A DNA stretch of 64,000 nt from Roseimaritima multifibrata. GTDB lineage: Bacteria > Planctomycetota > Planctomycetia > Pirellulales > Pirellulaceae. Below are positions 48,262 to 50,769 of this stretch, in pieces; within the stretch, counting starts at the first letter, position 1; the number at the start of each line of letters is the position of its first letter. The stretch is from contig NZ_CP036262.1 in assembly GCF_007741495.1 (NCBI RefSeq), positions 4,030,001 through 4,094,000 on the forward strand, in the 5' to 3' direction. The translations under genes and the position numbers were made by a program. The notes below the pieces were generated by a model. That model was not told the origin of the DNA. It worked only from the letters and a program-made list of their open reading frames with translations, and did not search any database.

Positions 48262-49227
48262 TTACTGACCGGGCAATTGAAAATCGAGGAAGAGCCGGTC
48301 AGAGGCCCACTTCTGAAACCAAGTGCCAACAGACATCGTCAATTGTTCGTCATCGAGCGAGGAGGTCTCTGCAATTTGCTCAATCGCCTCGCCCAGACAG
48401 ACATTGTTTGCCAAGCGTTCGAGCAACTGGAATTCCAACGCCTCCACCGCAATCGTGCGGACGACATATCGCAGGCGTGTTACGACCAAGAAGGTCGGTT
48501 TGGCGCTCGGCAGATCATCCCGGGTCGCAGTCCCCTTGCGCACCGCGATTGCATATTCATGTGCCCCGCTGCTAAGTCGCAACAGACGCACACAGGGCGC
48601 CAATCTCAAGGTTAGCTCGCCAACCTGATCGGGTTCAACCGCCGACAAAGTATCAGCATTCAGGGTTTCCAGGTTCTCGATTCCGGGTCCACTAAATACT
48701 TCGCTGTACGTCCGTTCGATCGTCGCCAAGTCGATCATCAGATCAAGCCAATACGCTTCGATTCCTAGATCCGATCCCTCATCGGTCGCGTCTCGGTTTT
48801 CGATCAGAAAACGATGGAAGTTGGCGCCCAAGTTAGCGAGCGTGTAGCTTTGCGACGGATAGGACTGCAAATAGTCAAACGCGAAAGCGTTGAACGTCTC
48901 TTCGCCCAATAGATGCGTCAACGCGGGATATTCTTCGCTCAGCACCTCTAACAGGCGAGCGTAGTACGCATTGGCGTAAACCTCCATTCTCTGCTGACTG
49001 CTCAATTGGCTGGAGGGCAAGATCAAATCTTCGATCGTGGCGGAATCCGACCCGATGGCCGTTTTGGCTACCGTCGACGCGGCACCCGACACAACTCCAT
49101 CAGGGCTTGCGATCACGGTCTGCATCCATTCCTGGACCGCACGCAGCGATGGTGCGCATCGGTGAAGTGGATCCGACGAGGTTGCGTCGATGTTCGCGGA
49201 TGCATTGCAGTCTTCAGCAGATCCCAC
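48262..49227 (-). CDS. DUF2063 protein, partner of the DUF692 enzyme (BufC/HvfC-like)
   Basis: 321 residues from a GTG that overlaps the stop of the DUF692 gene by one base. The DUF2063 domain starts at about residue 27 (LRAVQEWMQTVI) and includes MEVYANAYYARLLEVLSEEYP and LANLGANFHRFL; the end (VGTWFQKWASDRLFLDFQL) is a winged-helix-like domain. In characterised systems this partner brings the precursor peptide to the DUF692 enzyme. The first 26 residues look unstructured, so a start further downstream is possible. It is the last gene of a three-gene cluster with 49227-50210 and 50326-50769. Confidence 0.85.
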   Translation of the reverse strand: MGSAEDCNASANIDATSSDPLHRCAPSLRAVQEWMQTVIASPDGVVSGAASTVAKTAIGSDSATIEDLILPSSQLSSQQRMEVYANAYYARLLEVLSEEYPALTHLLGEETFNAFAFDYLQSYPSQSYTLANLGANFHRFLIENRDATDEGSDLGIEAYWLDLMIDLATIERTYSEVFSGPGIENLETLNADTLSAVEPDQVGELTLRLAPCVRLLRLSSGAHEYAIAVRKGTATRDDLPSAKPTFLVVTRLRYVVRTIAVEALEFQLLERLANNVCLGEAIEQIAETSSLDDEQLTMSVGTWFQKWASDRLFLDFQLPGQ

Positions 49228-50210
49228 TACTCAATCTCCGCCATCGTGTAATGCGAAGGCTGCGGGATCCCCACAGGTCGATTCGTCTCTGCCGCTGTCA
49301 CCCCTGTTTTCCTGTCGCGTGATTCACTGTCGGCGGTCTCGTCTGGTGCATACGCATCGCTCATGTACTTTCTGGCCTTCAGTACTTCAGCGTGAACGAC
49401 GTCGAATTCAGGAATCCCCGCGTCCCATTCCAATAAAGTCGAAGCCCGCACGCCTCGTTGATGCGCGTAGCGATAAAGTTCCCAGACAGGGTCGACCACT
49501 TTACCATCGTGCGTATCGATACAGTGCGTGCCCATATCCGTGTGTCCTGCCAAGTGGAACTGAACCACTCGGTCGACCGGAATGGCGTCAAGGTATTCTT
49601 TGGGTTCAAACTCATGGTTGACGCTGGACACATAGACGTTGTTGACATCTAGCAGCAACTGGCAATTTGTTTCTTCAGTCAGATACTTCAAGAACTCCCA
49701 TTCGCTCATCGTTGAATCACGAAAGGTGACGTAGGTGCTTGGATTTTCAAGCACCAATGGGCGTTCCAGCAGATCCTCCACGATGCGGACGCGTGCTGCT
49801 AAGTGCTTTAGCGTTTCCTCGTTGTATGGGACCGGAAGCAGATCGTGAGTATTTTTCGCGGCGACGCCGGTCCAACAGACATGGTCCGAAACCCACTGCG
49901 CCTTCACGTCCGACGCAAGTTGTTTGAGCTTTTTCAAATAGTCGATATCCAGCCGATCGGTGCTGCCAATCGACATTGAAACGCCATGCATCACAATCGG
50001 GTAACGCTCGGCGATCTGATCCAAGATGTATCTTGGTCGGCCACTACAATCCATGAAGTTTTCTGAAATGATTTCGAACCAATCCACCTCCGGCCACTCG
50101 TTCAGAATGTGCGCGAAGTGAACCGTTCTCAACCCAATGCCTAAGCCCAGTCCAGTCCGGTCATTGTCTGTTTGCTTCAGACTTTCTGTCGCATCATGAT
50201 TTGACTGCAT
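49227..50210 (-). CDS. DUF692 multinuclear iron oxidative enzyme (MNIO, BufB/MbnB-like)
   Basis: 327 residues. DUF692 landmarks are [13 protein letters not shown] and [11 protein letters not shown] at the start, [10 protein letters not shown] (metal-binding His), [41 protein letters not shown] and [14 protein letters not shown]. These TIM-barrel enzymes use two or three iron ions to oxidise cysteines of a precursor peptide, for example to thio-oxazoles or oxazolone-thioamides. The likely substrate is the cysteine-rich protein at 50326-50769, 115 bp upstream. A hairpin (50295-50312) sits between them. Confidence 0.92.
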
Positions 50211-50294
50211 ACGTCGTCCACCGAGTGTGAGTTGATTAGGACGCGTCCGGCCAGACCTGCAAATGAAGAACTGGCCGCAACGAATTCATCCAAT

Positions 50295-50312
50295 AGTTGG
50301 GCTATGCCAACT
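50295..50312 (-). promoter_or_regulatory. Hairpin between RiPP precursor and DUF692 gene
   Basis: A 6-bp stem with a 6-nt loop (agttgg gctatg ccaact) lies directly after the precursor stop. It has no T-run, so it may reduce read-through or protect the precursor mRNA, which would give more peptide than enzyme. Confidence 0.35.
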
Positions 50313-50325
50313 GCAACCGAGCCGT

Positions 50326-50769
50326 TTACTTAGGGGCTGGGCCGACCTTTTTGCCAGCTGCCTTCATCAGTTGCTCGAACTGCTTTCTTGCCAACTTTGA
50401 GGCTCCAGCATTCAAAGGCACACCACACTCACCTTTTCCTTTGCAGGTGTTTTGTCCAGGATAGCCGCCGCAGCCACCGGCCCCTTTGCATTCATTCGCT
50501 CCGGCACAATCGTGCTTAGCAACTGCAGCACAGGACCCCATGCCAGCGCAGTCGTGCTGCCCTTTCCCTTCGCCTTTGCATGTATTCAGTCCTTTACAAG
50601 CGTTCGGGGACGCGATCAATAACGCCGGGTCCACTCCAAGATCGACTTTGGCGGCTGCATTGTCCTGGGCCACAGCGTCTTTTGCACCAACGACCATCGC
50701 ACCGGTCGCCACAAGGGCGAGTCGTCCAAAGTTGCGTCGCCCGAAATTTGAATTACTCATGTTTGACAA
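50326..50769 (-). CDS. Tat-exported cysteine-rich RiPP precursor (bufferin-like)
   Basis: 147 residues. A twin-arginine leader (FGRRNFGRLALV, Arg11-Arg12) ends near AVA at 32-34. The mature region has nine cysteines (58, 64, 74, 80, 88, 94, 100, 109, 115), grouped as five CX5C units of the form CKGxNxC or CAGxxxC (CKGLNTC, CAGMGSC, CAGANEC, CKGAGGC, CKGKGEC). It resembles the cysteine-rich precursors (BufA2 type) that DUF692 enzymes modify to copper-binding peptides. The basic tail (SKLARKQFEQLMKAAGKK) may be a recognition helix. It heads the cluster, with a Crp-like palindrome 87 bp upstream. Confidence 0.8.
   Translation of the reverse strand: MSNMSNSNFGRRNFGRLALVATGAMVVGAKDAVAQDNAAAKVDLGVDPALLIASPNACKGLNTCKGEGKGQHDCAGMGSCAAVAKHDCAGANECKGAGGCGGYPGQNTCKGKGECGVPLNAGASKLARKQFEQLMKAAGKKVGPAPK

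Follow-up and report, generated by a model that had tools for sequence, protein, structure and literature searches.

How RiPPs that carry a signal peptide avoid being exported before they are modified is a question posed in the bufferin literature (PMC12452194). The operon described here makes it directly testable, with a Tat-type signal on the same machinery and relatives whose signals are of the Sec type. It lies in a 64,000-nucleotide stretch of the Roseimaritima multifibrata genome (the window) and encodes a precursor, an MNIO and a partner protein (Table 1). The operon is ordinary in kind, a bufferin operon of an already-known type; what is new here, judged from sequence, is the predicted Tat-type leader, the nine-cysteine core with a C-terminal helix, and the altered selectivity site of the enzyme. 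The reading that we favour, with a probability of about 60%, is that the precursor is a Tat-routed, nine-cysteine derivative of Buf2 that would be modified in the cytoplasm, exported by Tat and employed as a periplasmic copper buffer. The genes, the iron-ligand residues, the co-occurrence of precursor and enzyme, the conserved RR-x-F signal and the homology to Buf2 are shown here; what the enzyme does to the cysteines, transport by Tat, the identity of the metal and the sequence of modification before export are inferred.

Table 1. Features of the operon, in coordinates of the window.
Feature	Coordinates	Strand	Basis
DUF2063 partner P0003, 321 aa, with NGO1945 C-terminal (RRE-like) domain	48262..49227	-	Pfam profiles
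MNIO (DUF692) enzyme P0002, 327 aa	49227..50210	-	Pfam/NCBIfam profiles, TglH and 3BWW alignment
RiPP precursor P0001, bufferin-like, 144 aa, nine mature Cys	50326..50760	-	ORF call, BufA2 profile, alignments
C-terminal helix, residues 118-134	50359..50409	-	AlphaFold pLDDT 71-73 (residues 121-140), alignment A2
Cys core, residues 55-112	50425..50598	-	alignments, Cys-spacing count
Twin-arginine-type signal/leader MSNSNFGRRNFGRLALVATGAMVVGAKDAVA	50668..50760	-	RR conserved, enzyme-anchored survey

The initial annotation located the three same-strand genes correctly, except that its outer limit, 50769, falls on a TTG that lies in frame, three codons before the ATG at 50760; alignment with relatives favours the ATG, and the stop of the precursor orf ends at 50326. 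The one-base overlap between the other two genes is real: the GTG start of the DUF2063 gene shares its first base with the end of the MNIO stop (TAGTG). The precursor and MNIO genes are spaced 115 bp apart, and the order precursor-MNIO-DUF2063(RRE) is that of bufferin and captophorin clusters. The genome, a single contig of 7.2 Mb, yielded one PF05114 match in a profile search. P0002 scores 359.8 bits against PF05114 (cut-off 25) and 354.5 bits against the NCBIfam BufB profile NF050167 (cut-off 310), while P0003 exceeds the Pfam cut-offs for both DUF2063 (PF09836) and the NGO1945 C-terminal domain (PF22106) and is under the HvfC cut-off (55 vs 142 bits). This outcome of the profile search that had been proposed as a check bears out the claim of an MNIO RiPP operon related to bufferins. 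The NCBIfam MbnB profile gives 49 bits (cut-off 325); methanobactin was weighed and rejected.

Alignment to the sequence of the TglH structure, whose ligands are described in PMC10880893, with near-constant numbering offsets (3 or 4), places the iron ligands of P0002 at H75, H110, E155, D188, H219 and E261 and a third site at N191, D232 and H234. Loss of the iron-binding set had been named as grounds for abandoning the assignment; all nine residues are present, are at least 97% conserved in 61 sequences (the window and 60 relatives), and are kept in every group of a set of 125 enzymes, gaps in one or two rows aside.

The core cysteines of the precursor are C55, C61, C71, C77, C85, C91, C97, C106 and C112, so that both counts given earlier for this exported-type precursor, nine cysteines and five CX5C spacings, hold. 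When the core was shuffled 20,000 times, five such spacings were reached in 9 cases; among 440 stop-to-stop orfs of at least 66 aa in the window, the next best has three. A chance cysteine-rich orf and a TIGR04222-type substrate were both rejected. Alignment A1 (16 rows) shows no variation at any of the nine mature cysteines, and alignment A2 (56 rows) shows variation at one of them only, C61, which is Cys in 52 rows. H83 is kept in 53 of the A2 rows, and the C-terminal helix, not seen in 11 Pseudomonadota Buf2 rows, contains R125 (56/56) and E129 (55/56). AlphaFold gives the unmodified precursor a mean pLDDT of 50 with the core unfolded, which leaves the notion of a folded cargo without structural support.

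Among the closest known systems is Buf2 (BufA2-BufB-BufC; NF050166, NF050167; the "Cys-Lys" captophorins). The likeness extends to the A-B-C gene order, a BufB-grade MNIO, a DUF2063+RRE partner, an exported precursor and a repeated CKGxNxCKG core; CKGxNxC, which had been called distinctive of this planctomycete, is found in Pseudomonadota Buf2 precursors as well, and PMC13097082 names a precursor class with multiple Cys-Lys. The BufA2 profile NF050166 does match the window precursor, as the proposed search was to establish, with E 8e-4, but at 19.5 bits the match is below the cut-off of 60. The same profile matches every one of the 56 A2 rows at E<=1 and 54 of them at 0.01 (best 6.6e-13), and hhalign of A2 against the 11 Pseudomonadota precursors gives 97.5% probability and E 6e-12 over 35 columns. 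These Pseudomonadota controls were taken from 12 of 24 plasmid records, two of which share one signal and one of which (L168) has no adjoining MNIO; searching plasmids with the window precursor returned no match. Eleven of the 392 genomes of a phylum sample pass the BufA2 cut-off. L141, a 12-cysteine precursor locus of another planctomycete, passes it with in-frame neighbours, has RRNF and gives an A1-profile match at 3e-39, and L137 has 11 cysteines; because of these two, the nine-cysteine precursor reads as a shortened four-unit Buf2, as far as its sequence goes. Buf2 bufferins are described as having 6 or 12 conserved cysteines (Antoine et al., PMC12452194), whereas the window precursor has nine, an extra C-terminal helix with an invariant Arg, and in place of a Sec-type signal an RR-x-F motif with an h-region of low hydrophobicity, a distinction of motif and composition only. 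Since it differs in cysteine number and signal type and scores below the cut-off, the precursor was not filed as a BufA2 member.

The survey of gene neighbourhoods that had been suggested covered the best 80 of 406 loci. An MNIO is present in 61 of these 80 fetched stretches together with the precursor, and both MNIO and DUF2063 in 56; the MNIO lies directly behind the precursor in 59, making A-B-C the usual order. Antisense readings of the operon aside, no extra gene recurs in more than 9 of these 80 loci, the commonest neighbours, both named by eye, being genes for a thioredoxin-like protein (9 loci) and for a TVP38-like membrane protein (8 loci). The DNA upstream of the operon, compared between the window and four relatives, has no obvious common operator. 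The lack of a DoxX gene, another difference from Buf2, was noted correctly but is not unusual: two DoxX queries found none in the best 80 of 406 loci, many of which are short (33 with at least 7 kb on both sides), and detected the gene at 5 of 12 plasmid loci and at the Sec-type planctomycete locus L152. The absence of DoxX is therefore usual in this branch.

The metal to be buffered bears on one alternative, namely that the same machinery serves a non-copper metal or a stress (zinc, mercury, gold or oxidative stress). No copper gene is evident by eye among the orfs adjoining the operon in the window, and for bufferins fusions to MerC and operons induced by gold are described (PMC12452194); against this, Caulobacter Buf1 acts in copper excess and Buf2 does likewise according to a result reported as preliminary (PMC12452194), and we regard a non-copper function as somewhat unlikely.

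The initial annotation was right about the kind of operon but passed over the twin-arginine signal, the lipobox of relatives and the altered selectivity residue of the enzyme. In the window precursor a probable signal peptidase I site was placed by eye after AVA (residue 31), and there is no lipobox. RR is invariant in the 56 rows of A2, which were picked by similarity to a signal-containing query, and is found in all of the best 80 of 406 loci (judged by eye in L048 and L066, and with a frame break dividing L100), a count that is not independent because the query for the loci included the signal. RR was not a selection criterion in a further survey, since that survey was anchored on the enzyme. 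Precursors beside BufB-grade MNIOs of the window's class have RRx[FL] in 38 of 38 cases, close congeners included (37 F, 1 L): 21 of 21 in the family (20 RRxF and one RRxL), and 17 of 17, all RRxF, in 18 further stretches from the rest of the order and class. The phylum survey outside the family covered 72 of the 74 MNIO places chosen at E about 1e-85 or better; G192:C27 and G378:C121, both at contig edges, were left out. By our reading of the other 54 stretches, CKG-type precursors have RRxF in 11 and lack it in 12, of which two depend on the chosen start; the remaining 31 have other, ambiguous or no recognisable precursors. Planctomycete classes other than the window's mix leaders of predicted Tat type and predicted Sec type on related enzymes, and RR is absent from the signals of all 11 distinct Pseudomonadota Buf2 precursors read from plasmids.

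The Tat consensus is S/T-R-R-x-F-L-K-like. Among 93 unique Tat-type signals, selected by RRx[FL] (L022, with RRDL, is not included), R-R and F are fixed, and 78 have Lys or Arg five residues beyond the first Arg; the selection rule favoured neither this basic residue nor F above L. A lipobox is present in 36 of the 93. Their h-regions are less hydrophobic (1.79, n=93) than those of Sec-type signals (2.30, n=22, starts chosen by eye; p 1e-11). With TatC encoded in the host genome, the conserved consensus-like motif and the mild h-region are the sequence features of a Tat substrate. The TAT profiles TIGR02811, TIGR01409 and PF10399 match 18, 17 and 16 of the 56 A2 rows at E<=1, and at E 0.01 the NCBIfam pair matches 5 and 1; the best match among the relatives is weak (4.5e-4), and unrelated Pfam models match A2 similarly (SspO 17 of 56 rows, best 6e-4; DUF7640 28, best 1.2e-5). 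TIGR02811 and TIGR01409 matched none of the 11 Pseudomonadota rows in an NCBIfam-only control, where Rieske-protein models matched one row each (E 0.04 to 0.08).

It is unlikely in our judgement that the precursor is an ordinary Sec-exported bufferin whose RR-x-F is a recognition element for the partner and no Tat signal. Such a reading would accord with published systems, in which the Sec signal itself is the leader (PMC13419390, PMC12452194), with the AAxxGxxAG stretch beside the RR, which Sec-type planctomycete precursors share, and with the absence of any TAT-profile match at E<=1 to the window precursor itself; but related MNIOs of other planctomycete classes have precursors without RR, which shows that recognition does not generally require it, and the fit to the Tat consensus, the low hydrophobicity of the h-region and the TAT-profile matches of relatives also argue against it.

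A precursor that never co-occurs with an MNIO in relatives had been named as a reason to give up the assignment; the co-occurrence is in fact strong in both the family and the phylum samples. Among 149 genomes of the family, an MNIO of at least 350 bits is found in 23, all with a precursor, which lies within the 1.5-kb flanks in 21 and elsewhere in the genome in two; the MNIO loci of these two, L008 and L021, are therefore no exceptions. A precursor is found in 24 family genomes, 23 of which have such an MNIO; in the exception (G020), which has no MNIO, the precursor is 146 bp from the start of a contig on the strand that runs off it. No precursor is found in the 13 family genomes that have only other MNIO types. 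In the 392-genome phylum sample both are present in 61, the precursor only in two (72% and 68% complete), the MNIO only in 49 and neither in 280 (Fisher p 3e-38), that is, an MNIO in 61 of 63 genomes with the precursor and 49 of 329 without it. When 63 precursor places, weaker ones and fragments excluded, were compared with 61 MNIO places, 54 of the 63 were at most 2 kb from an MNIO. A plain cysteine-rich, Tat-exported, metallothionein-like metal binder that is not an MNIO substrate is very improbable: although 19 of the best 80 of 406 loci have no MNIO in the fetched stretch, the A-B-C order is usual, and the co-occurrence is specific to BufB-grade MNIOs. The genomes of 15 of these 19 were searched (18 genomes in all, three of them controls), revealing an MNIO elsewhere in 14 and none in one, a MAG. 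Three genomes of the window's own genus (G028, G083 and G109; compare G000) have neither MNIO nor precursor, and another genus has precursors 80-82% identical, a patchy distribution.

Under the Tat-routed Buf2 reading, the twin-arginine signal would double as the RiPP leader and be bound by the DUF2063/RRE partner while the MNIO acts on the CX5C core, oxidising its cysteines most likely, by analogy, to 5-thiooxazoles (-4 Da each). The modified precursor, perhaps metal-loaded and compacted, would then be exported by Tat, its signal being cut by signal peptidase I here and the protein lipidated at the lipobox instead in many relatives, and the mature protein may, as analogous systems suggest, buffer copper in the periplasm. 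The mass change of -2 or +14 proposed earlier does not agree with the literature chemistry, in which 5-thiooxazole formation amounts to -4 Da per modified cysteine (PMC13097082, PMC13419390); the hallmark of captophorins is a Cys-derived 5-thiooxazole with absorption at 305 nm and -4 Da. The signal peptide of HvfA doubles as its leader, and HvfA that has lost its Sec signal is a much poorer substrate for modification than the full-length peptide (PMC13419390). Modification of HvfA thus precedes signal removal, and by analogy we infer the same order for the window precursor. This order fits a Tat signal because Tat as a rule transports folded cargo.

A bolder and tentative proposal, possible but in our estimate the less probable outcome, is that in this lineage a RiPP family changed its export route, between Sec and Tat, and that Tat is a maturation checkpoint: the precursor would stay in the cytoplasm until modified by the MNIO and compacted by metal or disulfides, and the finished metallophore alone would be exported. 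On a quick tree of 125 MNIOs, which has long-branch warnings, the Tat label changes 4 times compared with 24.7 in shuffles, and at least two changes are forced by well-supported branches; the trait therefore tracks the enzyme lineage yet changed more than once. For this tree and for the signal statistics, labels were assigned by hand for L140, L153, L160, L164 and L172, which have a spurious upstream RR and were counted as Sec, and L159 was omitted. Tat also passes some short, unstructured, hydrophilic cargo, and this, with the unfolded core of the AlphaFold model, speaks against a strict checkpoint. If true, the checkpoint would be one answer to the problem of premature export raised by Antoine et al. 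(PMC12452194), and a Tat-exported RiPP class would extend across Planctomycetota as well as Verrucomicrobia and Hydrogenedentota, the latter two going by record titles.

The second change concerns the enzyme and bears on which cysteines are modified: the Asp that was modelled to touch the substrate Lys has been lost. In FonB, Asp249 is the catalytic base; at the selectivity position next to it, Lys-Cys enzymes have Phe, and Cys-Lys (BufB2) enzymes have an Asp that was modelled on the substrate Lys (Gadgil et al., PMC13097082). Alignment to 3BWW, which has D-F there (FonB was not in the alignment), puts the catalytic Asp at D263 and the selectivity position at A264. Position 264 is Ala in 91 of 96 readable rows of enzymes with Tat-type precursors (three Asp, two Ser) and in 4 of 8 planctomycete enzymes with Sec-type precursors, while the 11 Pseudomonadota enzymes have eight Asp and three Gly. 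At position 262, Trp is found in the 96 Tat-type-associated and 8 Sec-type planctomycete enzymes and Arg in the 11 Pseudomonadota and 7 TIGR04222-associated planctomycete enzymes, so the EWDA of the window enzyme contrasts with ERDD (8/11) or ERDG (3/11) of Pseudomonadota Buf2. In most A2 rows C55, C61, C91 and C106 are followed by Lys or Arg, C71 and C77 by Ala and C97 by Gly, and the residue after C85 and C112 varies; because such varied residues follow the cysteines, the precursor cores would fit a relaxed modification site.

Other known systems share some of these features. The oxazolin HvfABCX and fontiphorin systems (EGKCG captophorins) share a PME1-type partner and an MNIO, but have Lys-Cys 5-mer repeats and a Sec signal in contrast to the Cys-Lys/Arg/Ala/Gly contexts here. 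The RiPP-lipoproteins DybA and NedA are MNIO substrates with a lipobox (PMC12636315), as are many relatives here but unlike the window precursor, and a twin-arginine signal is unmentioned in the main text of that paper. Methanobactin MbnABC shares the MNIO iron site and cysteine oxidation, but is described as having no signal peptide (PMC12452194) and no nearby PME1 partner (PMC13097082). Bufferin signals are described by Antoine et al. as Sec signals, some with a lipobox, and a word check of the main text of their paper found neither "Tat" nor "twin-arginine" (PMC12452194). Among the papers listed by searches of the open-licence texts in PubMed Central, none was found that brings together a bufferin or MNIO RiPP and Tat export; both terms occur in PMC12509749, where twin-arginine appears solely in the reference list.

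Several loci in the survey have more than one precursor or precursors of other kinds. L057 (7328-8426), L082 (5240-8450) and L099 (1173-2252) each have a pair of RR-bearing precursors, of which one has a lipobox and the other a signal-peptidase-I-like site; the two may be anchored and soluble forms served by one enzyme. Two precursor-like orfs are also present in L090. Other repeats (SCSGDK, SCGGDK, GCPGKD, GCGGSK) are found upstream of the planctomycete MNIOs of L228, L232, L233, L199 and L241, and the precursors of L221, L230 and L235 consist of long units of the HECAGxNECKGxGGCKVxxxKLxxLAK type, with cysteine triplets between helix-like stretches. The MNIOs of L024-L030 and L245 have as neighbours long proteins whose tails are rich in Cys and Gly (CGGGGCGGCGG type) and which by eye resemble the TIGR04222 group. 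In L021 (G032:C90), where the precursor is elsewhere in the genome, the BufB-grade MNIO adjoins a gene that by eye is arsenite-methyltransferase-like.
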